A stretch of 64,000 nt of DNA from assembly GCA_016930695.1 (NCBI GenBank), contig JAFGGD010000049.1, positions 62,001 to 126,000 of the forward strand, given 5' to 3'. Under the pieces are notes generated by a model that saw nothing but the letters and a program-made list of their open reading frames with translations, had not been told where the DNA came from and searched no databases. Below are positions 17,501 to 33,420 of this stretch, piece after piece (positions within the stretch are counted from its first letter, which is position 1; every line of letters starts with the position of its first letter). The position numbers and the translations under genes were made by a program. The stretch is from Candidatus Eisenbacteria bacterium (GTDB taxonomy: Bacteria > Orphanbacterota > Orphanbacteria > Orphanbacterales > Orphanbacteraceae).

Positions 17501-19741
17501 CAGGGAACCGGCGTTGGTGAATTCGCCCTCGATGACCAGCACCCCCCCTTCGACCACGATCGCCCCGTCGCCCGGATCGTCACGGCGGTTGTCGAAATCG
17601 ACGGCGATGGCGCCGAAGCCCCTCGACTTCTCCGGATCGCTCTTGCGGACCGTGCCGCCGTTCACGAAGAAACCGTCGCCGATCAGAGAGCCGTCGGAAA
17701 GAATCACCGTTCCTCCGGACTCGTTCACGAAAGTGCCCCCGGCGGCGACTTCGAAGAAAGCCCCGTCGCTCACGAAGATCTCGCCGGAGTTCTCCCCTCC
17801 CTCGAGCACCGTCAAGGTATCGCTCCCGAGGGTGAGCGTCGGGCTATAGGAAAAGGAGGAGTCGATGGTCAGTTCGAGCACGACGGCGCTCTCGTTCAGG
17901 AGAACGACGTAGTTCGACAGATCCCCCGGAAGATAGGCGTGGTCCGACGCCGTCGGCACGCGGTTCGGATCCCAATTCGCCGTGTCGCTCCAGGAACTAC
18001 CGTCCCCCATTCCCGTCCAGACGACGACGGGCCGGCAACCCACGGGACGGGCCCCGATCACTCCGTAGGCGCTTCCGGTGCCGCAGGTGTCGAGGGCGCA
18101 GGGGGAGATCCCTTGCAGCGAGAGGGAATCCAAAGGGTTCTCGACGCCGCCGCAGAAGAGGGGATCGGCCGAGAAGTTCCCGCTCACGCTGTCCGACGAG
18201 GCGATGCAGCCGGTCCAGTCCCCGCCGTCGTTGCCGTACACGTCCGTGCAGGAGAGGATCGGGAAGCCCGATCCCAAGCAGGCGAATGCCTCCCCCGTTC
18301 GGTTATAGGCGATGATGGTGAGAGCGATGGAAGGAGAGGTGTCGGCGGTGAGCACGCCCGCTCCCGTGGGCGCGTCGTTCCAAACGATCGTGCAGTTGGT
18401 GAGGAAGGGACTTCCGTTTTCGATCAGAATCCCGCCGCCGTAGGTTTCCCCCGTGTTTCCCGCCAGCGTGCAGCCGGTGAGCCCCCCCGAGGCGGCGTAG
18501 CAGTAGACGCCCCCGCCTTGGTCCGCCGTGTTCCCGGCGAAGACGCAGTCCACCGCGTTCGGGCGCGAGGAGAGCCCGAAGTAGGCGCCGCCCCCCGTTT
18601 CCAATCCGCCGAGAAGGACCGTGTTCTCCGCGATGGTGCAGTCCGAGAGGTAGGCGCCGCCGCCGGACAGGTAGACCCCTCCGCCCCCCCAGTACGCGCT
18701 GTTGCCGGTGATGACGCAATGGACGACCGAGGCGCTGTCTCCTTGCAGGTTGACGCCGCCCCCCCCCGAGCCGGCGTAGTTCTCTTGGATACGGCAGGAG
18801 ATGATCCGCGGGTCGGCGTTCCACGATTTCAACCCGCCCCCCTCGCCGTCCGCCGCGTTCCCCGAGATCACGCAGTTCTCGATCGTCATCGCGCCGGTGG
18901 AGCGGCAGAGCATGCCTCCCCCCTGCTCGTCCAGCCCGGTCCCGACGGCGTGTCCGCCGGTGAGCGTCAGGTCGGCGAGTCGTGTGGCGGAGTTCACGCT
19001 GATGGCGTAGAAGACCCGGCCGAGGGAATCGGCGTCGACGACCACGTCCGTCGGATCACCGGTGGCGCCCGTGACGATCACGCCGGACTTCAGGGTGACG
19101 TCGTGCTCATAGTAGGTCCCCGCCGCGACGACCACCGTGTCCCCCACCGCCGCGGAGTCGATCCCCGCCTGGATGGTCGGCGCGTTGGACGGCACGTTCC
19201 ACGCCGTCGGCCAGCCCGCGCATCCGCCCGGAGGCGGGGAGGCGTTCACGCCGCCGTGCCCGGAAGGCCGCGTGGTGACGCACCACCGATCCACGTCGGT
19301 GTCGCAGTCGTACAGGCTGTCTCCATGGGTCGTGTGGGGGAGGACACGCAGATTCCCCCCTCCTCCGCTGTAGAAATATTCGAAATCCATCACCGCGACC
19401 CGCCCATTCCCGTCCGGGTAGAGACAGGAAGGCCAGGCGATCGCGCACCCCTCGACCTCGACGTCACCGATAAGGAGACCGCTGTTCGTCGGAGTGAAGG
19501 AGATGGGAATGGCATCGAAAGCACGGTCGAAACGGAACGCGACACCCGACACGCCGCCGCCCGAACCGAATCCCGTCAGATAAACGGTCCCGCTGAAAAT
19601 CGTGTTCGTCCCCGGTTCGATATAGTTGGAGTCATTCTCGAACTCGATGAAGATCCGGGCGTCCGGATTATCGCCGGCGACGGCCGGAACCGTGGAGACG
19701 AGAAGGAAAAGGAGAACGAAGAGAGGAGAGAGGGATCGCAC
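14564..19741 (-). CDS. Very large secreted beta-helix protein with FlgD-like C-terminal domain
   Basis: A 1,725-residue protein with a signal peptide (LFVLLFLLVSTVPAVAG). Architecture: an N-terminal beta-sandwich-like region (25-170); a right-handed beta-helix of the pectate-lyase/DUF1565 type (about 175-575, starting NAPTIQAGIDSAAVGDTVVV, with GNxAxxGGGxYxxxS-type coils); a Gly/Val-rich helical-solenoid region with three repeats of about 123 residues (about 600-1130); a cadherin-like Ig domain (about 1245-1330, TPITLHVLTNDTDGDLDPLR); a second beta-helix (about 1335-1620); and a FlgD-like tail (NRPNPFNPETAIRF to the terminal KMVLVR). Such proteins are surface adhesins or polysaccharide-binding proteins, and no catalytic motif is evident. 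It is convergent with the RHS gene (29 bases between stops). The FlgD-like tail is shared with five other proteins here and probably directs export or anchoring. Confidence 0.82.
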   Translation of the reverse strand: MRSLSPLFVLLFLLVSTVPAVAGDNPDARIFIEFENDSNYIEPGTNTIFSGTVYLTGFGSGGGVSGVAFRFDRAFDAIPISFTPTNSGLLIGDVEVEGCAIAWPSCLYPDGNGRVAVMDFEYFYSGGGGNLRVLPHTTHGDSLYDCDTDVDRWCVTTRPSGHGGVNASPPPGGCAGWPTAWNVPSNAPTIQAGIDSAAVGDTVVVAAGTYYEHDVTLKSGVIVTGATGDPTDVVVDADSLGRVFYAISVNSATRLADLTLTGGHAVGTGLDEQGGGMLCRSTGAMTIENCVISGNAADGEGGGLKSWNADPRIISCRIQENYAGSGGGGVNLQGDSASVVHCVITGNSAYWGGGGVYLSGGGAYLSDCTIAENTVLLGGLETGGGAYFGLSSRPNAVDCVFAGNTADQGGGVYCYAASGGLTGCTLAGNTGETYGGGILIENGSPFLTNCTIVWNDAPTGAGVLTADTSPSIALTIIAYNRTGEAFACLGSGFPILSCTDVYGNDGGDWTGCIASSDSVSGNFSADPLFCGGVENPLDSLSLQGISPCALDTCGTGSAYGVIGARPVGCRPVVVWTGMGDGSSWSDTANWDPNRVPTASDHAYLPGDLSNYVVLLNESAVVLELTIDSSFSYSPTLTLGSDTLTVLEGGENSGEIFVSDGAFFEVAAGGTFVNESGGTVILSDGSLIGDGFFVNGGTVRKSDPEKSRGFGAIAVDFDNRRDDPGDGAIVVEGGVLVIEGEFTNAGSLVVHTSAMALFDPGDGAFRAGSYANGDDGVIVIEEGAELQIDGAGTSFVNELGSLVVLEGGDITGTGTFVNYGRVEKRDPVLKSRAMSRITALFDNMHDDPGDGAIVVDEGVLSIENEFANAGSVLVNTNAQMLLDPGDGAFRGVFFDNTNYVRLLESSSLGILGATTVLENGAGGLILLEGDGAVSGDGLLRNYGTFRKEDPSKGARAIANLAADFHNLFDDPGDGAIVVADGTLNMQGEVVNHGTVTVDSGATLAVADTSGVKAGGGTRVSGSFLNTGTVTVAEAGTFTTEGNVSNGTLGDWDLSGTLEVRAGARFDNYGFVGLDTAAVVVNDGVFDLKENAVLEGSGLFDSDGGDFYGNGVIRPGCSAGVLTFFGDFLQSATSELEIEIGGTAPGAAYDRLLVEGGAVFDGAVYVTLTGGFEPTEGDSFSVVSVSAGFPVRNEFDCFSGLQTSGGLFLEPVEAADFFSLVARDSTTGNAAPSAAQDAAETNAVTPITLHVLTNDTDGDLDPLRIAELSDALTAGDVKIDPGDTTLTYTPSPGFAGLDSLTYRVTDCQGGVDSALVVVTVYRAPRIWAVPGDAPTIAAGLDSTLAGDTVEVAADTYHEHDLVMPSGVVLRGATGDPEDVIIDADSLGRVLYCVGLDSSTVVSGLTLFGGYHVNGAGMYCSGSDMTIRSCIFSWNVASGGGGGLRVYECDPLIRDCVFDVNDALSGGGVSFVRSSSLMDSCEIVWNDAVSGGGVHLHESEPSIRSCTFTENEATSSGAGIFSYSSEPVLTNVILAFNDGGAAVYCSGTGGPTLDCCDVYGNEGGDYVGCLSGMEGTDGNFSGDPYFCGVKKGADPFLIDAASSCAPDQNPYCGLVGARPVGCASQTAVDGPAEEPPAAFRLETNRPNPFNPETAIRFAVPKAGRVSLVVYDVSGRRVAVLADGPFDAGDFERVWRGVDDTGRPVGSGIYFARMRAEGFQATRKMVLVR
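16780..17900 (-). repeat. Three tandem repeats of about 370 bp in the beta-helix gene
   Basis: On the plus strand the word gccccgtc-xcccgg-tcgtc recurs at 16821, 17190 and 17562, a period of 369-372 bases. Each unit encodes about 123 residues containing a D-DPGDGAIVV core, an FxNAGS/VNHGT segment and an NYGxxxKxDPxK segment. Divergence between copies shows that the duplication is old. Confidence 0.7.
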
Positions 19742-20626: not shown

Positions 20627-20776
20627 GGCGTACCTCCCGGCGTGGGGGTCGGACCATTCCGACCGGGGTGAGCATACGGCGCGTCCGCGCCGGGGGTCAA
20701 GCCGCGGCGATCGTTGTCAAGGGGGGCGCGCCCTGTGCTACGATCGGTCGCGTACTCAAACGGGGAGGGTATGCCG

Positions 20777-22861
20777 ATGACGATCCGCGCCGCCGCCGCG
20801 CCACGCGCGCGCGGTTTTCTCCTTTCGCTCGCTCTTGCGATTCTCGTCGCCGCAGGCGGGGCGTCGGCCCTCGGGGAACCGCCCGCGGCGTCCTCGCCCG
20901 ACGGCCGCATCCGCTTCACCCTCGAGCTCGACGAGGGGGGGCGCCTCTTCTACCGCGTGCTCTTCGACGAACGCGTGGTGATCGACCGCTCCCGTCTCGG
21001 TTTCGTCCTGCGGGACGCGCCGCCGATGAACGAGGGCTTCCACGTGGAGAACGCCGCCGAGCGCTCCGGCGAGGAAGCCTGGGAGCAACCGTGGGGAGAA
21101 TGCCGATCGATCCGCGCCGCCTTTCATGAACTGGAGGTGGAACTGATGGAGAGCGCCCCGCCGGGACGCCGCATGATCCTCACCGTCCGGGTCTTCAACG
21201 ACGGCCTCGGCTTCCGTTTCACCTGGCCGGCGCAACCGGGGCTCGGCCGCTTCGCCCTGCTCGACGAAGGGACGGAATTCGTCTTCCCCGGCGACCCCGC
21301 CGCTTGGTGGATCCCCGCCTACGCGGGGAACCGCTACGAATACCTCTATAAAAGAACCCGGTTGAGCGGCCTCGCCGCCGATCCCCTTCTCCGCGCGGTT
21401 CACACGCCCCTCACGCTGGAAACGGAGGACGGCCTCCTCGTCGCCCTCCACGAAGCGAACCTGACCGACTACGCGGCGATGACCCTCGATCCGGAGCCCG
21501 GCTCGGTCCTCGCCTGCGACCTCGTCCCCTGGTCCGACGGCGACCGGGTGAAGGCGGAGACCCCCTTCCGCTCCCCCTGGCGCACCATCCAGATCGCCGA
21601 GAGCCCGGCGGATCTGGCGGAGTCCTCTCTCATTTTGTGTCTCAATGAACCGTGCCGTATCGAGGATGTCTCCTGGATCGAGCCGATGAAATACGTGGGG
21701 ATCTGGTGGTCCCTTCACATCGGAAAGGAAACCTGGACGACCGGTCCGAATCACGGGGGGACCACGGCGAACACGAAGCGCTACATCGACTTCGCCGCCG
21801 CCAACGGCTTCGGCGGCGTGCTCGTGGAAGGATGGAACACCGGCTGGGATCAGGGATGGCTCGAGACGGGCGCCTTCGATTTCACGACTCCCACGCCGGA
21901 TTACGACCTGGAGGAACTCGCCCGTTACGCCCGCGAAAAGGGGGTCACCCTGATCGGCCATCTGGAGAACGGCGGCGACGTGGCCGGTTTCGAGCGGCGG
22001 ATGGAGGCGGCCTTCGCGCAGTGCGAGAGGCTGGGCATACGGGCGGTGAAAACCGGGTACGTGAGCCAGGGGCAGGGGATCCGGCGCTACGACGGGGCGG
22101 GGCGGGAGATCGCCAAGGAGTGGCAGCACGGCCAGTACATGGTGCGACAATATCGGAAGGCGGTGGAGGCGGCGGCGAAGCACCGGATCATGGTGTGCGC
22201 CCACGAGCCGATCAAGGACACCGGCATCCGCCGCACCTGGCCGAACATGATGACGCGCGAGGGGGCGCGCGGCCAGGAGTACAACGCCTGGAGCAGCGGT
22301 AATCCGCCGGAACACACGGCGATCCTCCCCTTCACGCGGCTTCTCTCGGCCCCCATGGACTTCACGCCGGGAATCATGGACGTGCTGATCGAGCCGTACA
22401 AGCCGGACAACCGGGTGCACACCACGGTGGCGAAGCAACTCGCCCTCTACGTGACGATTTACAGCCCGATGCAGATGGCCGCCGACCTTCCGGAGAACTA
22501 CGAGGGAAATCCCGCCTTCGGATTCATCCGGGAGGTGCCGGTCGACTGGGAGGAAACCCGCTTCTTGAACGGCGCGATCGGAGACTACGTCACCGTCGCC
22601 CGCAAAGAGCGCGGCGGCGACGACTGGTACCTCGGGAGCCTCACCGACGAGGACCCGCGTGTGCTCCTCGTCCCCTTGGGCTTCCTCGACCCGGGCGCGG
22701 CCTACACGGCCTACGTCTACGCCGACGCCCCCGGCGCCGACTACCGCGGCAATCCCGAGGCGCTCTCCATCACTCGGGAGAAAGTGAACGCCGAGACGGT
22801 GATGCGGATCGACCTCGCCCCCGGCGGCGGCCAGGCGATTCGATTCCATAAGAACCGTTGA
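20777..22861 (+). CDS. Glycoside hydrolase family 97 (alpha-glucosidase type)
   Basis: A 694-residue protein with signal peptide (GFLLSLALAILVAAGGASALG). The GH97 plan is visible: an N-terminal beta-super-sandwich (SSPDGRIRFTLELDEGGRLFYRVLFD to about 290), a catalytic barrel starting EPMKYVGIWWSLHIGKETW, and a C-terminal beta domain (about 600-694). In the barrel, GVLVEGWNTGWDQGW, AVKTGYV, CAHEPIKDTGIRRTWPN (Glu near 474) and REGARGQEYNAW (Glu near 495 and 501) match the glutamates of the inverting alpha-glucosidase branch (SusB-like) rather than the Asp-nucleophile branch. It would release glucose from alpha-glucan ends in the periplasm. The start at 20777 is preferred over 20771 because GGGAGG is better spaced. 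No GH13 amylase is in the window. Confidence 0.9.
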   Translation: MTIRAAAAPRARGFLLSLALAILVAAGGASALGEPPAASSPDGRIRFTLELDEGGRLFYRVLFDERVVIDRSRLGFVLRDAPPMNEGFHVENAAERSGEEAWEQPWGECRSIRAAFHELEVELMESAPPGRRMILTVRVFNDGLGFRFTWPAQPGLGRFALLDEGTEFVFPGDPAAWWIPAYAGNRYEYLYKRTRLSGLAADPLLRAVHTPLTLETEDGLLVALHEANLTDYAAMTLDPEPGSVLACDLVPWSDGDRVKAETPFRSPWRTIQIAESPADLAESSLILCLNEPCRIEDVSWIEPMKYVGIWWSLHIGKETWTTGPNHGGTTANTKRYIDFAAANGFGGVLVEGWNTGWDQGWLETGAFDFTTPTPDYDLEELARYAREKGVTLIGHLENGGDVAGFERRMEAAFAQCERLGIRAVKTGYVSQGQGIRRYDGAGREIAKEWQHGQYMVRQYRKAVEAAAKHRIMVCAHEPIKDTGIRRTWPNMMTREGARGQEYNAWSSGNPPEHTAILPFTRLLSAPMDFTPGIMDVLIEPYKPDNRVHTTVAKQLALYVTIYSPMQMAADLPENYEGNPAFGFIREVPVDWEETRFLNGAIGDYVTVARKERGGDDWYLGSLTDEDPRVLLVPLGFLDPGAAYTAYVYADAPGADYRGNPEALSITREKVNAETVMRIDLAPGGGQAIRFHKNR

Positions 22862-22934
22862 CGGATTGAAATGAATCATGAAACCGGGGCTTAATGAGGG
22901 TAGGTGACTGTCCCTGATCCAATCCGCGTCGAGA

Positions 22935-22966
22935 CAAAAGAAAAGGGGCGGGAGTGATCCCGCCCC
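22935..22966 (-). terminator. Rho-independent terminator of the secreted alpha-glucan-binding-like gene
   Basis: A perfect stem GGGGCGGGA (22945-22953) with TCCCGCCCC (22958-22966) and a 4-base loop. On the minus strand it is followed by TTTTCTTTTG. It may also slow transcription coming from the GH97 gene on the other strand. Confidence 0.75.
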
Positions 22967-22995
22967 TTCCCGTATGCGAATGTTCGGATCGCCGA

Positions 22996-24060
22996 CTACC
23001 GGAAGAGCGTCTTGACGCTGCCCCAGGTAGCGTTCTCGGTGGCGGTCACGTCGTCCAAGACCACCTTGATCCGGCCGGACTCGTGGAGATAGAACCCCAC
23101 CCAGCCCTCTTGGGTCACTTCGAAAGACCAGGTGCCGGAGTTGCTGCCGTAGCCGTTCACGCCCGCCTGGAGATCCCAGCCGCCGTTGGCCGCGCACTTG
23201 TACTCGTGCGTTCCGAGCATGCCCGAGTCGAAGTAGACCTGCACCCGGAGGACGCCGCCGCCGATGTCGGCCATCTGCGTCGCGACGTTGGAGGGATCCC
23301 AACCCTGCCAATCACCGACCGCCGCCCAGGTGTGGCCGGCGGCGAGGAGACTGCCGTCGTAAGCCGCGTTCGACTCCGGCGACCAACCCACCATCGGGTT
23401 GGTGTCCAGGAAGAATTCAACCACGTCACTGGTGACGAAGCTGATCGGGATGTTGGAATCGCCCGGATACTGGGGACTCCAGCTGCCGCTCACGCCGACC
23501 ACCTGGTAACCGGAGCCGCCGCCCGCGGTGAAGTCGGCGGTCGCGGTGAGGGTCACGCTATAGATGCCGTCCATCTCCGGATCGGCCATGTCGGTCAGGG
23601 CGTCGCCGTTGCTCCAGTCGCCGCCGCCGAGTTCGCTCTCACAATCGCCGACGAGGTTCGGAACCTCGGGAGGAGCGACGCCGGAGGTGAAGGAGAACTC
23701 ATCGGACTCGCAGACGCTGCCGTCGCTGCTCGTGGAAACCACGTACCAGCGGACCAGGTCGCCGCCCACCGCGGTCAGCCACGCTTGGTACCAGTCGTTG
23801 TTGCTGTTGTACTGATAGAAGGTCCCCGGCTCGGTCACCGCCGTCCCCGAATTTTTGGGATCGGTGTTGTCGGTGGTGTAGATGAAGTCCATCGACGTGA
23901 GGGTCCCCATTCCGTCCGGATCGCCCGGCCAGACCTGCGCTTCCACGAAGTTGGTGTTGGGATCGCTGTAGCCGTTTCCGCACCAACAATCCGCGAAAGC
24001 ACTCGCCGCGAACGCCATCGCGATCAGAAGACCGCCGGTGATCAGATAACCTCTGCGCAT
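22996..24060 (-). CDS. Secreted protein with X25/SusE-like carbohydrate-binding modules and WG-K short C-terminal motif
   Basis: A 354-residue protein. The ATG at 24060 follows GGAGGTGCATTC. The signal peptide is YLITGGLLIAMAFAASAFA. The mature N-terminal region (about 25-130) is a beta domain rich in Asn and Tyr. Two modules follow (about 145-230 and about 235-330) with the pattern of starch-binding X25/SusE-type domains: GDWSNGDALTDMADPEMDG and VGDWQGWDPSNVATQM, then HEYKCAANGGWD. No catalytic motif is seen. The protein ends VTATENATWGSVKTLFR, a short terminal motif shared with the proteins ending at 26430 and 27124. Placed next to GH97 and the CBM48 protein, it is probably an alpha-glucan-binding surface protein. 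The function is inferred from module similarity only. Confidence 0.62.
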   Translation of the reverse strand: MRRGYLITGGLLIAMAFAASAFADCWCGNGYSDPNTNFVEAQVWPGDPDGMGTLTSMDFIYTTDNTDPKNSGTAVTEPGTFYQYNSNNDWYQAWLTAVGGDLVRWYVVSTSSDGSVCESDEFSFTSGVAPPEVPNLVGDCESELGGGDWSNGDALTDMADPEMDGIYSVTLTATADFTAGGGSGYQVVGVSGSWSPQYPGDSNIPISFVTSDVVEFFLDTNPMVGWSPESNAAYDGSLLAAGHTWAAVGDWQGWDPSNVATQMADIGGGVLRVQVYFDSGMLGTHEYKCAANGGWDLQAGVNGYGSNSGTWSFEVTQEGWVGFYLHESGRIKVVLDDVTATENATWGSVKTLFR

Positions 24061-24159
24061 GAATGCACCTCCATCGGCTGCGCGGCATGGATGCTCTCGG
24101 CGCGGCCCGTTGAGTGACACGGCTGGGGGGGGGAATTCGATCCGAAAAGTTACTCTATA

Positions 24160-24188
24160 TCATATAACAGACAGGGGGTTGCGGCAAC
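24160..24188 (-). promoter_or_regulatory. Putative promoter for the gene starting at 24060
   Basis: On the minus strand TTGCCG (24188-24183), a 17-base spacer and TATGAT (24165-24160), about 100 bases before the start codon. The surrounding AT-rich stretch contrasts with the GC-rich genes. Confidence 0.4.
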
Positions 24189-24256
24189 ACGTTTGTTGAG
24201 AGCCCGATGAGGGGAAAGGGAAATCCTCGAGGGAGCGAGCCCTGAATATCCGGTAA

Positions 24257-24409
24257 AACACGAAAAAAAAAGGCGGCGACCAACGCCAAAACCGCGAAGC
24301 CCCGTTCAACACCAGCGCGTCCGCCGGGGTCGTTGTGACTTACTATTACACCTGCCCGGTCGGGATTGAAGATTCCTCCTGGGGATCGATCAAGAAGCTC
24401 TTTAATTAG
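24257..24409 (+). pseudogene. Orphan 3' remnant of a secreted protein gene carrying the WG-K tail
   Basis: The plus-strand frame is open only from 24257 (after a TAA) to the TAG at 24407-24409. Its last part reads VVVTYYYTCPVGIEDSS and then WGSIKKLFN, matching the short terminal motif of the three neighbouring secreted proteins, with Asn in place of the final Arg. No start codon or ribosome site precedes it, and the body of the gene is missing. A strong intrinsic terminator follows 22 bases after the stop, as for a real gene end. I read it as the relic of a deleted or rearranged gene. Confidence 0.55.
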
Positions 24410-24431
24410 GGCATCCCACTTCTTATGATTC

Positions 24432-24465
24432 GGCGGCTTGGGCAAAACCCAAGCCGCCTTTTTTT
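24432..24465 (+). terminator. Strong rho-independent terminator behind the orphan gene tail
   Basis: A perfect 11-bp stem GGCGGCTTGGG (24432-24442) with CCCAAGCCGCC (24448-24458) and a CAAAA loop, followed by seven T residues on the plus strand. The T-run shows that the direction is rightward. There is no intact rightward gene before it, only the remnant. Confidence 0.85.
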
Positions 24466-24559
24466 GACCGAGTGATCTCCGGTCTCCGTCTTCCCCGCGG
24501 GTTCGTCTTCCGCCGATTCCGGCCGATCGAAGACGAAGCGCCGCCCGTATCGGAACCCG

Positions 24560-26356
24560 TCACTTCACCAGCGTCATCTTTCTCGTCTCGCGGCGCTCCC
24601 CCGCTTCGAGGCGGTAGAAGTAGGCCCCCGAGCTCACCGGCCGGCCCGAATCGTCGAGGCCGTTCCACTGCAGTGTGTTGGTACCGGAGTTTCCGATCCC
24701 GCGGAACCCGGCCACCCTTCGCCCGGCGACGTCGAAAATCACGATCTCGTAGGGACCGCCCGAGGGAAGATCGAATCGGATTTCCGTCAAGGCGTTGAAT
24801 GGATTCGGGACGTTCGAGATCGGGAGGAACCGGCGCACACCGGCGGCCTCGGCCTCCTCGACACCCGTGTCGATTCCCGCGTCCCAGTAGATGTCGTCCA
24901 ATGCGAATTCGCAGGCCGTCCCGTTCTCCTCGAGGATGACGAAGGAGTAGCTCAGCATGCGGAGGTCCATGTAGAGCCCCCGGATGTCGTCGACCGGAAT
25001 CGCGGCCTGCCCCCACTCGCCGTCGCGGACCAGACCGTAGGTCGTCTGATAGGCCGGAAAGGTCACATAGGACTGGTTGCCCCAAGTATCGATGATCCCG
25101 ATCTTGAATGTGACGCCCGCCGGAATCTTGATCATGAACTTGATATGTCCGTCGCCGAAGCCGAACAGGTTCAGAGGTTGAATCGACATGATGCCGGCGC
25201 CGAACCAACCGAGACCGGTCGTCTGCCAGGAGATGCCGTTGGGACCCTCATAAGGAGGAATGGATCCGTCGGTCAGCGTACCCTCCCACACGTAGATCTC
25301 GGAGGAGACGCCCGCCTCCAGACCTCCGTTGGTCGGGGTTTCGTCGGTGAAGATCCCGAAGGCGCCGCTCTCCGCGTCGGGAGGGCCGAGATGGACCTCG
25401 CCTTGGCCGTTCCATTCATAGACCCGTATGTAGTCGACGACCATCTCCGCCGGGAAGGGCATCGAAACCGGCGCGCCGCTCCCGGGATCGCCGAGATTGT
25501 ACGCGTCGGTGAACGCCCCGCCGACGGCGAGGTTCGCGATCAGGTAGAAGGGGCTCCGGAACTCATCGGATTCTTCGTCGATCGAGAAGGGCGAATCGTA
25601 CAGGTCGTACTCGACGGAGTCATCGATGACGGTGAACCGCAGGCTGTTCTCGTCCCAATACAAACGGTACGTCAGGAAGCGCTCCACGAGAGGGGGCGCG
25701 TAGCTGAAGTAGGGGCGGCAGTATTCGTCATCGGGATCCCAGGAAAGACTGGCCGCGCCCGAGGGATTCCCCGGATTGACGGCGGCGTCGGAATAGAAGA
25801 TGGCGTTGGCGCCCGCCGACTCGTTGACCGTGGAGTTGTCCAGCCCGTTCCCGCCGTTGTGCGTGTCGTGCAGATCCCGGTAGACCTGCTTCCCCCCCAT
25901 CTCCATCATGTCGATCTCGCCGTTGCGGGGCCAAGCGTAGTTGGCGGTTCCCAAGAGCCACACCGCCGGCCAACCACCGAGGTCGAGGTCCGGTATCTTG
26001 ACCCGCGCCTCGATCATGCCGTAGCGGACGCTCACGAACGATTTGCTGATGACCTTCCCGGATGTGTAGTGGAGGGGATTCCCCCACTGATCGACGATCC
26101 CGGGGCCGCTCTCTTCCTTGGCCGTGATGCGGAGGGCCGTGTTCCCCGGCTCTCCCGAAACCGCCGCGATCTCGACGTTCTCTTCCTTGTAGTACTCCAG
26201 TTCGCCGTTTCCCCAGCCCCAGTATCCGTTGCCGGTGATCTTGAGCCAGTCGTCCAGATCGTCGAAATCCTCTTCCCAGATCAGCGCGCCGATTTGGGCG
26301 TGGGCGGCGTTGACGGATACGATCATCGCCGCGACGAAGAGGATGAGCTTTTTCAT
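24560..26356 (-). CDS. Secreted GH16 beta-glucanase (laminarinase type) with FlgD-like tail
   Basis: A 598-residue protein with signal peptide (MKKLILFVAAMIVSVNAAHA). The GH16 domain spans about 22-325: DEDFDDLDDW-like opening, NGELEYYKEENVEI, YTSGKVISK, GMIEARVKIPD, WPAVWLLGT and the catalytic GEIDMMEMGG near residue 143 (E-x-D-x-x-E form with beta-bulge). A beta-sandwich module follows (about 330-500) and then a FlgD-like tail (SNVPNPFNALTEIRFDLP to RKMTLVK). GH16 enzymes of this type hydrolyse internal beta-1,3 or mixed-linkage glucan bonds with retention. GGGGAGGTATC precedes the ATG. It is the third gene of a leftward group (27124, 26430, 24560) led by the twin operators at 27963-28008. 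Confidence 0.9.
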   Translation of the reverse strand: MKKLILFVAAMIVSVNAAHAQIGALIWEEDFDDLDDWLKITGNGYWGWGNGELEYYKEENVEIAAVSGEPGNTALRITAKEESGPGIVDQWGNPLHYTSGKVISKSFVSVRYGMIEARVKIPDLDLGGWPAVWLLGTANYAWPRNGEIDMMEMGGKQVYRDLHDTHNGGNGLDNSTVNESAGANAIFYSDAAVNPGNPSGAASLSWDPDDEYCRPYFSYAPPLVERFLTYRLYWDENSLRFTVIDDSVEYDLYDSPFSIDEESDEFRSPFYLIANLAVGGAFTDAYNLGDPGSGAPVSMPFPAEMVVDYIRVYEWNGQGEVHLGPPDAESGAFGIFTDETPTNGGLEAGVSSEIYVWEGTLTDGSIPPYEGPNGISWQTTGLGWFGAGIMSIQPLNLFGFGDGHIKFMIKIPAGVTFKIGIIDTWGNQSYVTFPAYQTTYGLVRDGEWGQAAIPVDDIRGLYMDLRMLSYSFVILEENGTACEFALDDIYWDAGIDTGVEEAEAAGVRRFLPISNVPNPFNALTEIRFDLPSGGPYEIVIFDVAGRRVAGFRGIGNSGTNTLQWNGLDDSGRPVSSGAYFYRLEAGERRETRKMTLVK

Positions 26357-26373
26357 GATACCTCCCCGGTACG

Positions 26374-26409
26374 AAAAAGGGCCGCCCTCTTACGGAAGAA
26401 GGCGGCCCC
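26374..26409 (-). terminator. Intergenic terminator-like hairpin between the 26430 and 24560 genes
   Basis: The stem is GGGCCGCC (26379-26386) with GGCGGCCC (26401-26408), followed on the minus strand by TTTTT. It lies only about 18 bases before the GH16 start codon, so it probably attenuates read-through or protects the upstream message end. Confidence 0.7.
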
Positions 26410-26429
26410 GTGAATGAATGGACGCCGCA

Positions 26430-27047
26430 CTAGCGGTACATGGACTTGATGCCGCCCCAACTGGTCGCCTCGACGGCGGTCGTGCCCTGATCGAGGCTGA
26501 CGTTGTCCACGTGCGCACGGCAATTGGAGCCGACCGTCGCGCCGGTCACGGCCTCGAACTGAATGGTGAGGAAGTCCGTGCCCGCCGGCGCCTCGAAGGA
26601 ACCGTTGAAGTTCGTCCAAGCGCCCCACGGCCAGTAGGGACCCATCAGGCCGGTGCCGCCGATGACGCCGATCCCTTCCTGCTCCGCGAAGATCTGAACG
26701 AAGAGCACGCCGCCCAAATCCGCCTGATCCAGCTTCAGATCGAAGGAGTAGTACACCGTCCCCGGACCGGCGGTGCCGACGGCGGTCGACTGCTTCAGAA
26801 CGAGAGCCAGCGCCTGGGCTTGGTTGTCCAGGAAAGTGTTGTAGTCGCCGGGCGCCGAGGGCCCGTTATCGCCGGACTGCACGGTCGCGTTGGAACTGGG
26901 GCTCACTCCGAAAACCTGCCAACCGGTGAGGTCGCCCGTTTCAAAACCGGGATTCACCAGGATATTCGCCGCGGAAGAGATGCCGGGGATCGCGAACGCC
27001 AGGAACGCGACCGCCAATCCGGTCAAGATCATCTTGCGAGAGTTCAT
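26430..27047 (-). CDS. Small secreted carbohydrate-binding-like protein with WG-K short C-terminal motif
   Basis: A 205-residue protein. The signal peptide is MILTGLAVAFLAFAIPGISSA, and the ATG at 27047 follows AAGGAAATC. The mature part is one jelly-roll-like domain beginning NILVNPGFETGDLTGWQVFG, the usual opening of CBM4/9/22-type and related extracellular binding domains, and it ends with RAHVDNVSLD, the usual last strand. A 16-residue tail, TAVEATSWGGIKSMYR, closes the protein directly after the domain. Probably a beta-glucan-binding secreted protein co-expressed with the GH16 behind it. The sugar specificity cannot be read from sequence. Confidence 0.65.
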   Translation of the reverse strand: MNSRKMILTGLAVAFLAFAIPGISSAANILVNPGFETGDLTGWQVFGVSPSSNATVQSGDNGPSAPGDYNTFLDNQAQALALVLKQSTAVGTAGPGTVYYSFDLKLDQADLGGVLFVQIFAEQEGIGVIGGTGLMGPYWPWGAWTNFNGSFEAPAGTDFLTIQFEAVTGATVGSNCRAHVDNVSLDQGTTAVEATSWGGIKSMYR

Positions 27048-27060
27048 GATTTCCTTTCTA

Positions 27061-27089
27061 TGGAAAGGGCCCGGTGAGTCCCGGGCCCT
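27061..27089 (-). terminator. Intergenic hairpin between the 27124 and 26430 genes
   Basis: A perfect stem AGGGCCCGG (27066-27074) with CCGGGCCCT (27081-27089), followed on the minus strand by a short T-rich stretch (TTTCC). It lies just before the next gene's ribosome site, like the hairpin at 26374. Confidence 0.5.
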
Positions 27090-27123
27090 CTCCGTGATGA
27101 AGGAGGTTCCTCCTTCGGGAGAA

Positions 27124-27822
27124 CTACCGGAACAGGGACTTCACGCCGCCCCAGCTCTCGTTCTCGACCGCGGTGGATCCGTCGGGGGCGAAATTCACGT
27201 TGTCGTAAAAGACGCCGCATCCCTCATAATTCGTGGCCGTCGTCGAGAAACCGATCTGCAGAATCTGGTTGTCCAGGCCCGCAATGTCGATGCTGAGCAG
27301 ATAGCCCGTCCAGGTGACCGGTGTGGTCGTCATGTCCGCCGTGATGAAATTGGTCATCGCCCAACCGGCGTTGGGGTCCAAAGTCTTGATGAAGGCGAGC
27401 GCCGTGGAGCTACCCTCCAGGTTGCCGATCTTGGCATCGAAGGTGAAGTTCCAAACGCCGGAGGCGCCGGCGGGAACGGTCCACTCCTGGTAGAGGTTCG
27501 TCTCGACCCAGTTGCCGTTGCCGTGTTCACCGTTGGCGTAGTCGCTGTAGACCACGATCTGCTGGGCGCCCTGGGCCGGGCCGCCCTCACCGGTGACGAT
27601 GTCCTGCCAGTTGCCCACGTTGTTGACGGCGGAATAGGGACCGTACCCGCCGATGTAGCCGCCACCCGGATCGAAGACGTTTCCGTAGTTCAGCCAGCCA
27701 TCGCCGGAGAGCGAACCGTCGACCGGAGGCAGGCTCTCGAAGTCCTGGCTGTACGTAGTCTGCGCGAGAGAAATCGCCGGGATCAGCAGAGCCGACAGAA
27801 GCACGATAGCAAAGGTCTTCAT
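27124..27822 (-). CDS. Secreted beta-sandwich protein with WG-K tail, paralog of the 47480 protein
   Basis: A 232-residue protein starting at the ATG at 27822 (AGGAAGGAG upstream); the frame is open to 27987 but that part covers the promoter. Signal peptide FAIVLLSALLIPAISLAQ. The mature domain (TTYSQDFESLPPVDGSL to IFYDNVNFAP-like GVFYDNVNFAP) is homologous along its whole length to the protein at 47480-48454. Shared blocks are DGWLxYGNVFDP, YGPxxAxN, IVTGEGGPxQxAQQ, NxxxEWTVPAG/EYTIEAG, FDAKxGNxxGSSTAxAFIKT and MTNFIT/LTNFIT. It ends TAVENESWGGVKSLFR. The paralog instead has a FlgD-like tail. Its last strand resembles carbohydrate-binding jelly rolls, and no enzymatic motif is seen. First gene behind the twin operators. 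Confidence 0.68.
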   Translation of the reverse strand: MKTFAIVLLSALLIPAISLAQTTYSQDFESLPPVDGSLSGDGWLNYGNVFDPGGGYIGGYGPYSAVNNVGNWQDIVTGEGGPAQGAQQIVVYSDYANGEHGNGNWVETNLYQEWTVPAGASGVWNFTFDAKIGNLEGSSTALAFIKTLDPNAGWAMTNFITADMTTTPVTWTGYLLSIDIAGLDNQILQIGFSTTATNYEGCGVFYDNVNFAPDGSTAVENESWGGVKSLFR

Positions 27823-27953
27823 TCTTTCCACTCCTTCCTGAGAATCGTTTCTCTGACTCCTCGTTCTATCTCCAGCCATCGAGAGATGGTGTTTCTTCGG
27901 AGTTCTCCCCTCGCCCTCGAAGGCGGTATCCTCTGGTGTTATCCAACGGGTGT

Positions 27954-27983
27954 AGTATAGACTATGTTCGGTCTCCGAATCAA
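27954..27983 (-). promoter_or_regulatory. Promoter fused to operator O1 (leftward)
   Basis: A 21-bp imperfect palindrome at 27963-27983 reads on the plus strand TATGTTCGG-TCT-CCGAATCAA. On the minus strand the same bases supply a -35-like TTGATT (27983-27978), and exactly three bases after the palindrome comes the -10 box TATACT (27959-27954). The arrangement palindrome-GTS-TATNNT recurs at 38099, 46901 and 47207. It drives the 27124 gene and probably the two after it. Occupancy by a repressor would block RNA polymerase. Confidence 0.72.
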
Positions 27984-27987
27984 GCAT

Positions 27988-28008
27988 TTTGTTCGGTTAC
28001 CGAACCAA
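27988..28008. promoter_or_regulatory. Operator O2
   Basis: A 21-bp palindrome TTTGTTCGG-TTA-CCGAACCAA, with one mismatch between the arms. Its centre is 25 bases from the centre of O1, so the two sites may bind dimers cooperatively. It is not attached to a recognisable -10 box of its own. It lies in the 490-base gap between the leftward 27124 group and the rightward 28313 operon. Confidence 0.68.
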
Positions 28009-28204
28009 GATTTTTAACTTCCATCATTGCAATCGATTATGAGAGGAAAAAAGAGCGCGATCCCCTCCTGGAACCGCCACGGAACCCGGGGAATCCTTAC
28101 GCAGACCGCGACGAAGAGAACCTTACCGACGTCCGGAGGCGCCCCTCCGGCGGAGGCGTGGGATCCGACCGGTGAGTCCCGATGGGTGCGGGGTTCCTTG
28201 CTTG

Positions 28205-28253
28205 TTGACAGAATCTCGTCTCTCATTCATACTTTGATCGGAGTCCGAACAAA
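28205..28253 (+). promoter_or_regulatory. Promoter with operator O3 for the lipoprotein-ROK-GH16-transporter operon
   Basis: A near-ideal promoter: TTGACA (28205-28210), a 17-base spacer, CATACT (28228-28233). A 21-bp palindrome TTTGATCGG-AGT-CCGAACAAA (28233-28253) starts on the last base of the -10 box and covers the expected start point. This is the classic place for a repressor. The operon encodes a ROK regulator, so autoregulation is likely. The untranslated leader to the ATG at 28313 is about 70 bases. Confidence 0.75.
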
Positions 28254-28312
28254 GCAAGAGGATCGGCCGGATCCTCTACCAATGTATCCCGAATCGATCG
28301 CGGAGGCGTGAA

Positions 28313-29680
28313 ATGAAGCCGAAAAACCGGAACTGGGCGGTCGGAGCGCTCCTTTTCGTGGTCCTCGCTCTCGCGGGTTGCGCCGAGAGGGACACGACGG
28401 GACTCCCGTTCGCCGCGGCGAGCACCGATCCCGTTGTCTTCGACGACGACTTCGGCGACGCCGTCGACTTCCAAGCGTTCCTCGGATCCAAGACCGACGC
28501 CGTCGACATCGACACGGAGAATCCGCGATCGGGGACGGCTTCCTTGAAAGTGACCGTTCCCGGCCCGGGGGCGGTGGACGGGACCTACGCCGGCGGGGCG
28601 TTCACCACCTTCAACGTCCGCGATCTCAGAGGCTACAACGCCCTCACCTTCTACGCCAAGGCGAGCATGGACGCCGCCCTCGACGTGGCGGGTCTCGGAA
28701 ACGACAACACCGGGACCTCCCTCTACACGGCGGAGAGGCACGCCATCCCGCTGACCACCGAGTGGCAGTGGGTCATCATCCCCATCCCGCTCCCCGAAAG
28801 GCTGGCCCTGGAAGGGGGACTCTTCTTCTTCGCGGAAGGATACGAGCAGGGGACGGGCTACACGATCTGGTTCGACGAGGTGTTGTTCGACAGCCTCGAT
28901 TTCATCTCCGATCCGCGTCCTGCGCTGGCCACCGATACCTTGCAGGTCTTCGTCGGAGCGAAGGCCGACCCGGACAGCACGCGTGTCACCTTCGACGTGA
29001 ACGGGGAAGACGTGACGGTGACCCACATGCCGGCGTACTTCGACTACCTCTCCTCCAACGAAGCGGTGGCGACCGTCTCGGACGGAGTGATCTCCATCGT
29101 CGGCGGCGGGAGCGCTCTGATCACCGCGAAGCTGGATACGATCGACGCGGCCGGATCGATCGCCGTCACCGCCCTCGCGCCGCCGCCGACGCCGGCGCCC
29201 ACCCCCACCGTGCCGGCCGTCGACGTGACCTCCCTCTTCAGCGAGGCCTACCTGGACATCACCGTCGACATGTGGAACACCTTCTGGGCGTGGTCCACCG
29301 CGCAGGTGGAGGACTTCACCATCCAGGGGGACAGCGTCAAGCTCTACACGGAACTCAACTTCGTAGGGATCGATTTCTCGACGGTGACCGTGGACGCCTC
29401 CGACATGACCCACCTCCATCTGGATGTGTGGGCGCCGGAGGGGACCGACTTCAAGGTGAAAATCATCGCGCGGAACGCCGCGGGCCAGTACGCCGGCGAA
29501 GCGGAGCTCGCCTTCGACGGGACCACCACGCCCGTCTTCACGCCGGGTGTCTGGTCTTCCCTCGAGATTCCGTTGGACGATTTCTCGCTCGCCGTGCCGC
29601 GGGACCATCTGGCCTTTCTCGTCCTGAGTTCGACCGACGCGAGGACCGTATTCGTGGACAACATCTACTTCCACAAGTAG
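28313..29680 (+). CDS. Surface lipoprotein with two carbohydrate-binding-like domains and an Ig-like domain
   Basis: A 455-residue protein with a lipoprotein signal (ALLFVVLALAGC; Cys near residue 23). The first beta-sandwich (about 35-200) runs from VVFDDDFGDAVDFQAF to WFDEVLFDSLDF. The next region is a bacterial Ig/BIG2-like domain (about 205-290, YFDYLSSNEAVATVSDGVIS then GGSALITAKL). A Pro-Thr linker follows, and then a second beta-sandwich (about 305-455) ending TVFVDNIYFHK. The two outer domains resemble sugar-binding jelly rolls. No enzyme motif is seen. It heads the operon with the ROK regulator, a GH16 lipoprotein and a sugar symporter, and probably captures beta-glucan at the outer membrane, a role filled by SusD/E/F-like proteins elsewhere. 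The role is inferred. Confidence 0.68.
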   Translation: MKPKNRNWAVGALLFVVLALAGCAERDTTGLPFAAASTDPVVFDDDFGDAVDFQAFLGSKTDAVDIDTENPRSGTASLKVTVPGPGAVDGTYAGGAFTTFNVRDLRGYNALTFYAKASMDAALDVAGLGNDNTGTSLYTAERHAIPLTTEWQWVIIPIPLPERLALEGGLFFFAEGYEQGTGYTIWFDEVLFDSLDFISDPRPALATDTLQVFVGAKADPDSTRVTFDVNGEDVTVTHMPAYFDYLSSNEAVATVSDGVISIVGGGSALITAKLDTIDAAGSIAVTALAPPPTPAPTPTVPAVDVTSLFSEAYLDITVDMWNTFWAWSTAQVEDFTIQGDSVKLYTELNFVGIDFSTVTVDASDMTHLHLDVWAPEGTDFKVKIIARNAAGQYAGEAELAFDGTTTPVFTPGVWSSLEIPLDDFSLAVPRDHLAFLVLSSTDARTVFVDNIYFHK

Positions 29681-29714
29681 GCTGGGCGGAAGGCGCGGCG
29701 TAGGAGACCAACGA

Positions 29715-30986
29715 TTGAACAGCGAAGATCGATTGCGCAAGGGGATCAGGCGGACCGAACCGGATCGCCCCCGGCCTCTCGCCGACGCGGTGCTCCGTCT
29801 CATCTGGCGGGAACAACGGATCTCGCGGGCCGAGATCGCCCGGAGGGCGGCCCTCTCCCGGTCCACGGCGTCGGAGATCGTCGGTGAGATCCTCCCCACC
29901 GGGCTCGTCGCCGAGGGGGGAGTCGGGGAGTCCCGCGGGGGACGACGGCCGATCGTTCTCGAGTTCCAGGACGAGTCGTGCGTCATCATCGGCGTCGAGA
30001 TGGGCGCGAATCACGTGGCGGCGGCGCTCACCGACCTCCGGGGGAACGTGCTCGCCTGGGAGTCGCGGGACCACCCGGTCCGCACCGATCCCGCGGGGAG
30101 CCGCGCGCTGATCGCCGATCTCGTCGCCGCCTGCCTCGCGTCGGAGCCGCACGGGGGAAAGCCGCTCGTCGGGATCGGCGTCGCCGTTCCGAGCCCCATC
30201 GATCCGTCCCGGCCGGACGCCCTGTCGAAGGTCGTTCTTCCCGACTGGGACGGACGGCTCGGTCTCGAGGAACTCCAGGAGCGTTACGGCGTCCCCCTGC
30301 TGGTCGACAACGACGCCAACCTGGGCGCCCTCGCCGAGCACTGGTGGGGCGCGGGCCGCGGCGTCGACGATTTCGCCTACATCAAGGTGGCGACGGGGAT
30401 CGGATCGGGGCACGTGATCGGCGGGGAGATCTACCGGGGCGCCACCGGCGTCGCCGGCGAGATCGGCCACCTCGCCATCGACCCGCACGGAGAACGATGC
30501 ATCTGCGGGCTCCGGGGTTGCCTCGCCACCCTGGTCGGCGGACCGGCGCTCGTCGCCCGGGCGGCGGCGCTTCGTCCCGAATACCCGGAGAGCCCGCTCT
30601 CTTCGAACAGACCGACGGTCCGCGGAATCGAGGACGGCGCCCTCGCGGGCGATCCTCTCGCCCTCCGGATCGTGCGCGAGGCGGCGGAGCATCTGGGCAT
30701 CGCCGTGGCGGGCCTCATCAACGTCATGAATCCTTCCCTCGTGGTCATCGCGGGCGATCTCGCCCGCGTGGGCGAACCCCTCCTCGAACCACTCCGGGAG
30801 ATGATCAAAACGCGAACCCTGATCAGCTCCGTCGCCGCCGCCGAGATCCGGGCGAGCGAACTGGGACCGCGGTCGGTCGCCGTCGGCGCCGCCACCCTCG
30901 TGCTCAAGACCGCCCTTTCCGATTCGCGGCTCTTCCCGGCGATCGCGGTCGAAACCGAAAAGACGGCGGAGGACGCGGCCCGATGA
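29715..30986 (+). CDS. ROK family transcriptional regulator (XylR/NagC type)
   Basis: A 423-residue protein with a TTG start at 29715, preceded by GGAG. The N-terminal winged helix-turn-helix (about 20-80) has ISRAEIARRAALSRSTASEI. The ROK sugar-kinase-like part (about 90-400) shows IGVEMGANHV, LLVDNDANLGALAEHWWGAG and the zinc-type CICGLRGCLATL near residue 261. ROK repressors release DNA when they bind a sugar or sugar phosphate. Bacillus XylR, of the same family, binds TTTGTT-spacer-AACAAA palindromes, which resembles the 21-bp sites in this locus. It is the only transcription regulator visible in the beta-glucan locus and is therefore the best candidate reader of these operators. The TGA overlaps the next ATG (ATGA). 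Confidence 0.9.
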   Translation: MNSEDRLRKGIRRTEPDRPRPLADAVLRLIWREQRISRAEIARRAALSRSTASEIVGEILPTGLVAEGGVGESRGGRRPIVLEFQDESCVIIGVEMGANHVAAALTDLRGNVLAWESRDHPVRTDPAGSRALIADLVAACLASEPHGGKPLVGIGVAVPSPIDPSRPDALSKVVLPDWDGRLGLEELQERYGVPLLVDNDANLGALAEHWWGAGRGVDDFAYIKVATGIGSGHVIGGEIYRGATGVAGEIGHLAIDPHGERCICGLRGCLATLVGGPALVARAAALRPEYPESPLSSNRPTVRGIEDGALAGDPLALRIVREAAEHLGIAVAGLINVMNPSLVVIAGDLARVGEPLLEPLREMIKTRTLISSVAAAEIRASELGPRSVAVGAATLVLKTALSDSRLFPAIAVETEKTAEDAAR

Positions 30987-31792
30987 GCGCCCGTCTCCGC
31001 GCGGCCTGCGTCCTGCTCGCGGGGATCCTCTGTTTCGGAGGGCGTTGCGGGACGGACCCGACGGAGGTGTCTCTCGTCTTTCAGGACGAGTTCGACGGCG
31101 CCGCCGGCCGGTCGCCGGACCCGGCCAAGTGGACCTACGACATCGGCACGGACTGGGGGAACGCCCAGCTCGAGTACGACACGAACCGTTCCGAGAACGT
31201 CTCGCTCGACGGGGAGGGCCGTCTCGCGATCATCGCCCGGGAGGAGGAGTACCGGGGGCGGGCCTACACGTCGGCGCGCATCAAGACCCAGGGGCTCTTC
31301 CAGAAAACGCGGGGGCGTTTCGAGGCGCGCATCAAGCTCCCCGTCGGACAGGGGCTCTGGCCCGCCTTCTGGCTCCTCGGCGCGAACATCGGAACGGTCG
31401 GCTGGCCGGAGTGCGGGGAGATCGACATCATGGAGTACCGTGGGCAGGAACGGCGCGTCGTCCACGGCAGTCTCCACGGCCCCGGCTACTCCGGAGGCTC
31501 GGCCCGCTCCGCCTCCTATGAACTGTCCGAGGGATCTTTCGACGAGGACTTCCACGTCTTCGCGGTCGATTGGGACGAGGACGGCATCACCTGGTCCGTC
31601 GACGGCGACGACTATCAGACCATCCGGCCGGGGGATCTTCCCGCCGGGACGCGCTGGGTCTTCAACGACCCCTTCTTCATCATCCTGAACGTCGCCGTGG
31701 GAGGCAACTATGTCGGTCCGCCGAACGCATCGACCGTCTTCCCGCAGACCATGCTCGTCGACTGGGTCCGCGTCTACGGGTCCGATTCCTGA
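30983..31792 (+). CDS. GH16 beta-glucanase lipoprotein
   Basis: A 269-residue protein whose ATG overlaps the ROK stop. The N terminus (RAACVLLAGILCFGGRCG) is a lipoprotein-type signal, with Cys near 22 as the probable anchor. The rest is a single GH16 domain: VFQDEFDGAAG, WGNAQLEYDTNRSENVSL, YTSARIKTQG, GRFEARIKLPVGQGLWPAFW, the catalytic GEIDIMEYRG near residue 144 (E-x-D-x-x-E) and a closing MLVDWVRVY. The length is typical for a catalytic domain without accessory modules. It likely cuts beta-1,3-glucan close to the cell, feeding the symporter encoded next. It lacks both the FlgD tail and the WG-K tail, consistent with lipid anchoring. Confidence 0.92.
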   Translation: MSARLRAACVLLAGILCFGGRCGTDPTEVSLVFQDEFDGAAGRSPDPAKWTYDIGTDWGNAQLEYDTNRSENVSLDGEGRLAIIAREEEYRGRAYTSARIKTQGLFQKTRGRFEARIKLPVGQGLWPAFWLLGANIGTVGWPECGEIDIMEYRGQERRVVHGSLHGPGYSGGSARSASYELSEGSFDEDFHVFAVDWDEDGITWSVDGDDYQTIRPGDLPAGTRWVFNDPFFIILNVAVGGNYVGPPNASTVFPQTMLVDWVRVYGSDS

Positions 31793-31855
31793 TCCCGCCC
31801 CCGACGGCGCCGCCGCGCGGATCGCGAGATCCGGACGGCCGATCGAGGTGATCCC

Positions 31856-33337: not shown

Positions 33338-33367
33338 GAGCGCCGGCGCCCTCTCGGGCGAGGAAAA

Positions 33368-33403
33368 GCCGGGACCGGTTTCGACCGGCCCCGGCTTCTT
33401 TTA
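33368..33403. terminator. Bidirectional terminator between convergent operons
   Basis: The stem is GCCGGGACCGG (33368-33378) with CCGGCCCCGGC (33385-33395), with one mismatch. It is followed on the plus strand by TTCTTTT and on the minus strand by CTTTTCC. It separates the symporter gene from the barrel-fusion glycosidase gene. Confidence 0.7.
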
Positions 33404-33420
33404 CGCCGCGAATGTTCGCG

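Follow-up and report, generated by a model that had tools for sequence, protein, structure and literature searches.

A 16-residue C-terminal tag on diverse secreted proteins of Eisenbacteria-like bacteria and Krumholzibacteriota interchanges with the type A sorting domain of the type IX secretion system

The described sorting signals of the type IX secretion system (T9SS) are C-terminal domains (CTDs) of type A, B or C, about 70–235 residues in length (PMC10202324, PMC11969387, PMC12618676). The shortest natural CTDs, in Prevotella intermedia, are three-stranded sheets of 40–55 residues, and 22 residues of HBP35 are enough for green fluorescent protein (PMC11969387, PMC10202324). A basic residue in the last motif of the CTD is essential (PMC10202324, PMC11969387, PMC12618676). 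Other C-terminal tags are tripartite and include a transmembrane helix (PMC11980579). Here we describe a C-terminal tag of about 16 residues on secreted proteins encoded in a 64,000-nucleotide stretch of DNA (the window) from Candidatus Eisenbacteria bacterium (GCA_016930695.1, contig JAFGGD010000049.1, positions 62,001–126,000 of the forward strand) and in related genomes. The initial annotation of the window knew of no described family with this exact end; no Pfam or NCBIfam model for the tag was found, and the open-licence literature, in which absence is not proof, yielded nothing on the tag or on T9SS in these phyla.

Three proteins of the window had been reported to end almost identically, and their tails are present as quoted and where they had been placed: ATENATWGSVKTLFR (gene 22996–24060), AVEATSWGGIKSMYR (gene 26430–27047) and AVENESWGGVKSLFR (gene 27124–27822), all on the minus strand (Table 1). 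The shared end is [TSV]-[AP]-[VT]-E-x-x-[ST]-W-G-x-[IV]-K-x-[LM]-[FY]-R; an example form of the tag peptide is TATEESSWGAVKSLFR. A fourth, degenerate copy on the plus strand (24257–24409) had been overlooked, and its open reading frame is probably what remains of a fourth tagged gene. A strict DNA pattern (W-G-x-[IV]-K-x-x-[FY]-R-stop), with the reversed pattern as control, occurs at 21 places in the window's own genome (G000, 3.78 Mb; control 0). All seven genomes of the phylum (G000 and six others, G001–G006) contain it, 9–38 times each and 179 times in total (control 0). In Krumholzibacteriota it was found in 76 of 80 genomes (607 matches; control 2), and in Latescibacterota 22 of 64 genomes have the tag, with 1–4 copies each. 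The profile (19 columns, built from 48 tails; threshold E ≤ 1) detected 38 tails in the window's genome and 28–86 in each of the six relatives. A scan of GTDB genomes gave at least 120 stretches with the tag among the matches listed, labelled Eisenbacteria, Krumholzibacteriia, Latescibacterota, Zixiibacteriota, Effluviviaceae, some Gemmatimonadetes and, for many, only 'bacterium'. The tag is spread over Eisenbacteria-like bacteria and Krumholzibacteriota and is thinner in Latescibacterota and related lineages. In genomes with a single tag (20 low-copy loci), it is carried by varied small secreted proteins and never by parts of the T9SS, for which reason the idea that these loci point to a core component was rejected. 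One of the low-copy loci (L196) is a likely false positive.

The 287 profile-matched tails yield a simple rule, counted from the C terminus: S/T at −10, W at −9, G or S at −8, I/V at −6, K at −5, L/M at −3, F/Y at −2 and R at −1. Position −13 is E, and an acidic residue (E/D) is found there in 69 of the 77 loci for which the search pattern left this position out. The terminal R is present in 275 of the 287 tails, a few of which run 1–4 residues longer. Synonymous codons vary freely (K as AAG or AAA, R as any of six codons, all three stops), so the constraint acts on the protein and the tag is not a DNA repeat. Around 95% of the profile matches lie within 2 residues of the stop codon. The initial annotation had regarded occurrence inside proteins as speaking against a recognition tag; internal copies are confined to tandem-duplicated NTF2-like lipoproteins, with one copy per repeat, and the tag is otherwise terminal. 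These lipoproteins (L286 (G000:C44), L130, L133 and L050) appear to have one or two repeats, assigned to NTF2 by eye and not matched by Pfam, with a tag after each; the internal copies vary between intact and degenerate, as though stop loss had fused genes.

None of 257 tagged proteins has a transmembrane-like stretch in its last 60 residues. An N-terminal hydrophobic segment was detected in 227 of the 257, compared with 470 of 899 untagged neighbour genes, by a crude heuristic and not by SignalP. In AlphaFold2 models of a tagged family with 20 members, the body, a beta-sandwich, was predicted with a pLDDT (predicted local distance difference test) score of 85–96 and the linker with a score below 50, and the tail formed a short helix beyond the fold. 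The model of the 27124–27822 protein, from 7 sequences, was weak and at most consistent with this arrangement. For the final ten residues the hydrophobic moment at the helix angle was 0.51 (0.36 in shuffled sequences), and the moment at the strand angle was raised as well.

The bodies to which the tag is attached fall into 82 clusters among the 257 proteins (BLAST, E 1e-3), the largest of which has 29 members. Pfam domains in 110 representatives include beta-helix, X25, CHRD, lamin-tail, cohesin, ice-binding adhesive, FG-GAP, C-type lectin, cupredoxin, MAM, pectate lyase and CBM9 folds. Matches to NCBIfam include six choice-of-anchor families (A, E, F, J, W and X); choice-of-anchor domains are named for their co-occurrence with varying C-terminal sorting signals. 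The motif had been expected at the very C-terminal end of many signal-peptide proteins with differing bodies, and this was borne out; it is also shared by more than one family. Within the window the claim of unrelated or distant bodies needs some restriction: the 26430–27047 and 27124–27822 proteins are 41% identical over the last 63 residues, tail included, and PSI-BLAST extends their relatedness. The window thus contributes two unrelated folds and not three; the claim of diversity rests on the genome-wide set. The tail is better conserved than the body in orthologues with conserved synteny; in three such sets identity is 82, 57 and 60% over the last 12 residues and 31, 28 and 44% over the bodies, respectively. 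Two kinds of tagged protein may be mentioned separately. Tagged proteins of 180 residues form a tandem-array family (L177:8649-9194, with arrays in L216, L228 and L292) with a predicted cohesin fold, for which the best PDB matches are Clostridium cohesins (E about 1e-7). At L299:1117-3618, three tandem tagged proteins have paired EF-hand-like repeats (DNGDGxxSxCD) reminiscent of dockerins.

The tag interchanges with the T9SS type A domain. The initial annotation had noted that none of the three proteins has a FlgD-like tail, which must be qualified in that the body of the 27124–27822 protein has a close relative with such a tail. The two proteins (27124–27822 and 47480–48454) are 51% identical over 228 residues in an alignment that reaches the junction with the tail. 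After the junction, the first has the 10-residue SWGGVKSLFR and the second an 86-residue FlgD-like domain that scores over the TIGR04183 cut-off. A homologue with a type A tail exists for 35 of 264 tagged proteins, and 14 of these 35 pairs align to within 30 residues of both junctions. The 35 cases share just six type A partners, mostly beta-helix proteins, so the independent swaps are fewer than 35. At least 11 tagged beta-helix proteins have bodies that align with the 14564–19741 protein up to the tail junction. Tagged proteins are shorter (median 226 versus 727 residues). No protein with both the tag and a type A tail was found among all loci (264 tagged proteins), and a candidate (L164.2) was an artefact of the regular expression. 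TIGR04183 gave no match on tagged proteins, and sister proteins with true type A tails pass its cut-off.

The genome of the window encodes SprA (529 bits, cut-off 200) and PorU (544 bits, cut-off 420), and PorV lies directly after PorU. SprA is present, and PorU scores over its cut-off, in seven of seven genomes of the phylum. SprA was also detected in 47 of the 49 named genomes with the tag, in 80 of 80 Krumholzibacteriota and in 63 of 64 Latescibacterota, and the genomes with the tag are nearly a subset of those with SprA. Covariation with SprA is uninformative as a test of the reader, because SprA is universal across the phyla tested. For PorU and the tag in Latescibacterota the counts were 20/15 against 2/8 (a weak association, Fisher p = 0.07, kinship not corrected), and no canonical PorU over the cut-off was found in the eight sampled genomes of the tag-free clade G133–G154. 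In five of five loci examined, SprA adjoins a divergent lptF/lptG-like pair and is itself followed by an M28 peptidase. A second PorU-like C25 peptidase (G000:C49:33685-37704; 262 bits, under the PorU cut-off) lies about 10 kb from tagged genes, and in relatives from several genera tagged genes flank it on either side. It was rejected as a link to the tag, since the conserved block around it consists of unrelated genes and it has a type A-like tail of its own; it is more likely cargo or synteny. PorV-like genes stand beside tagged genes in only one lineage (L128/L133). A dedicated partner gene was likewise rejected, the neighbours in the window's genome and two relatives being only housekeeping synteny and type A-tailed proteins.

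Several further observations concern the T9SS itself. SprA is near-universal and PorU common in these phyla; several papers limit the T9SS to Bacteroidota or to the Bacteroidetes–Chlorobi–Fibrobacteres group. SprA is part of a conserved housekeeping block (L209–L213; G000:C45:1-16000 and relatives), and the product of the M28-family gene after it resembles glutaminyl cyclase. After A-x-A, tagged proteins most often have Q (31), which resembles the Q-rule of Bacteroidota.

Overall, the tail is very probably a genuine sorting-type tag. The T9SS comes into question as its reader on two grounds: at the same junction the tag swaps with a T9SS signal, and the machinery genes are present. The chances that the tag is read by the T9SS, or by a shuttle protein belonging to it, are about even. 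Export by Sec and removal of the signal peptide would come first. The folded body would then end in a flexible linker and, after it, a short helix of amphipathic character (S-W-G-x-[IV]-K-x-[LM]-[FY]-R-COOH). This helix, with its free C terminus, would most likely be recognised by an outer-membrane component of the T9SS, possibly by binding in a groove; the component could be a shuttle of the PorV type at the SprA translocon, or else a specialised relative. The protein would subsequently be delivered to the cell surface, with or without cleavage by PorU. In this scheme 16 residues would serve as the roughly 80-residue immunoglobulin (Ig)-like type A domain does on sister proteins, and the role of the tag may be sorting, anchoring or both. 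We lean slightly towards this explanation as a whole, that is, delivery of tagged proteins to the cell surface by the T9SS via the tag.

Several results weigh against a role of the T9SS: (i) 42 of 64 Latescibacterota genomes are tag-free and 63 of 64 have SprA, so that co-occurrence with SprA discriminates little, placing the tag within the range of the T9SS but not showing that the T9SS is the reader; (ii) no match to SprA or PorU was found in G035 (QNAI01, 8 tags) or G046 (JAGNNA, 3 tags); (iii) Bacteroidota, the best-known T9SS group, are absent from the labels of the at least 120 matches listed; (iv) clustering of neighbours in the window's genome and two relatives revealed no recurrent partner gene beside tagged genes; (v) 13 of the 257 tagged proteins look like lipoproteins, with a lipobox, which is unusual for T9SS cargo; and (vi) the tag has neither motifs B and D nor the Ig/beta fold of known T9SS CTDs. 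The labels of G035 (Verrucomicrobia) and G046 (Reyranella) suggest mixed or incomplete bins; if they are not, these two genomes are the best counter-example to a link with the T9SS. Irrespective of the reader, the data probably reflect an undescribed C-terminal sorting pathway of the Eisenbacteria/Krumholzibacteriota branch, based on a 16-residue helical peptide without transmembrane segment or CTD fold. The peptide would be either a new minimal class of T9SS signal, read by a dedicated shuttle, or the address used by a separate machine for outer-membrane sorting that has clients in common with the T9SS.

The main alternative, possible but distinctly less likely, is that the tag is not an export signal but an anchoring or docking peptide, the amphipathic helix of which plugs into a dedicated receptor. 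Tagged proteins would then take a different route to the surface, or to the outer membrane's periplasmic face, and be held by an outer-membrane, surface-layer or scaffold protein in a dockerin- or SLH-like manner. In favour of docking are the form of the tag, a short amphipathic helix in which W, K and R hardly vary, the swap with other anchors on choice-of-anchor bodies, the presence of the tag on lipoproteins that are already membrane-anchored, and the tagged family with a cohesin fold, a type of body that needs anchoring. However, the tag interchanges at the same junction with the type A domain, which is an export signal, and no receptor gene was found near tagged genes. Unlikely is a second alternative, in which the tag is the site of a sortase-, rhombosortase- or myxosortase-like processing enzyme that cleaves the linker and attaches a lipid or glycan, independently of the T9SS. 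The many-to-one use of short tags at the extreme C terminus of choice-of-anchor bodies recalls GlyGly-CTERM and MYXO-CTERM (PMC3237569, PMC11980579), but those signals combine a transmembrane helix with a basic cluster in a tripartite arrangement (PMC11980579), and a C-terminal transmembrane-like stretch is missing from all 257 tagged proteins. The enrichment of export signals among tagged proteins would also fit a tag for a periplasmic chaperone or protease, acting in retention or quality control and not in surface sorting, and PDZ-type proteases and chaperones do read a fixed free C terminus. The swap with a T9SS sorting domain argues against this very improbable reading, and the adhesive, carbohydrate-binding, cohesin, lectin and beta-helix bodies point to surface or extracellular display. 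Ordinary homology, with the tail merely the end of one domain family, or chance has a negligible probability: although two of the window proteins are distant relatives and the largest cluster holds 29 proteins, a single family is rejected on the number of body clusters and their differing Pfam folds, chance is ruled out by the near-zero reversed controls, and the tail lies outside the fold.

With the tag as a one-line rule, part of the surface or secreted proteome can be predicted in several phyla known mostly from metagenomes, and most proteins in the predicted set are without annotation. If the T9SS reads the tag, the minimal information for type IX export lies far below that of Ig-like domains and may be helical, which would bear directly on the nature of recognition by the T9SS. 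Otherwise, an outer-membrane sorting system separate from the T9SS is still to be discovered. On either reading the tag would be a compact one for tests of surface display.

The features of the window are collected in Table 1. Tagged and type A-tailed proteins are interspersed in a glycan-use locus (20771–36606), which contains GH97 (20771–22861), two GH16 (24560 and 30983), a ROK regulator (29790), an MFS sugar transporter (31856) and a GH2-like gene (33421).

Table 1. Tagged genes, their tags and type A-tailed or FlgD-like-tailed neighbours, by position in the window.
Feature	Position	Strand	Remarks
Beta-helix protein with FlgD-like tail	14564–19741	−	
Tagged secreted protein with X25/starch-binding-like domain	22996–24060	−	354 residues from ATG at 24060; PF22058, 53 bits
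C-terminal tag and stop of gene 22996–24060	22996–23046	−	TATENATWGSVKTLFR
Open reading frame of 50 residues ending GIEDSSWGSIKKLFN	24257–24409	+	Degenerate copy of the tag; profile match G000:C49:86350-86403
GH16 enzyme with T9SS type A tail, between two tagged genes	24560–26356	−	TIGR04183, 34.1 bits
Tagged secreted protein, weak CBM_4_9-like body	26430–27047	−	205 residues
C-terminal tag and stop of gene 26430–27047	26430–26480	−	TAVEATSWGGIKSMYR
Tagged secreted beta-sandwich protein	27124–27822	−	232 residues
C-terminal tag and stop of gene 27124–27822	27124–27174	−	TAVENESWGGVKSLFR
Paralogue of the 27124–27822 protein; T9SS type A/FlgD-like sorting domain replaces the tag	47480–48454	+	TIGR04183, 27.6 bits (cut-off 23)

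Among known C-terminal signals, the beta-signal of the beta-barrel assembly machinery is a C-terminal aromatic residue that ends the last barrel strand, whereas the tag ends in R and forms a predicted helix outside the fold. Cohesin–dockerin and SLH systems also attach diverse enzymes, and one tagged family has the cohesin fold, but the 16 residues show no similarity to dockerin or SLH. MYXO-CTERM, GlyGly-CTERM, PEP-CTERM and LPXTG are, like the tag, short C-terminal tags found dozens of times per genome on many bodies, and choice-of-anchor domains are common to both sets; these signals differ by their transmembrane helix and basic cluster, and no known CTERM model is among the 25 NCBIfam families listed for 110 tagged proteins. 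The type B (TIGR04131) and type C signals illustrate that the T9SS takes sequence-unrelated signals via specialised shuttles (PMC12618676, PMC10202324); their CTDs measure 100–235 residues, and type B often adjoins porP/sprF, whereas tagged genes have no such recurrent neighbour. The type A domain (TIGR04183/PF18962) shares with the tag its C-terminal position, Sec-exported varied bodies, genomes with SprA, PorU and PorV, an invariant basic residue near the end (motif E), and homologous bodies joined at the same junction. The type A CTD is a beta-sandwich of about 70–100 residues, and the tag that takes its place is a predicted helix of about 16.

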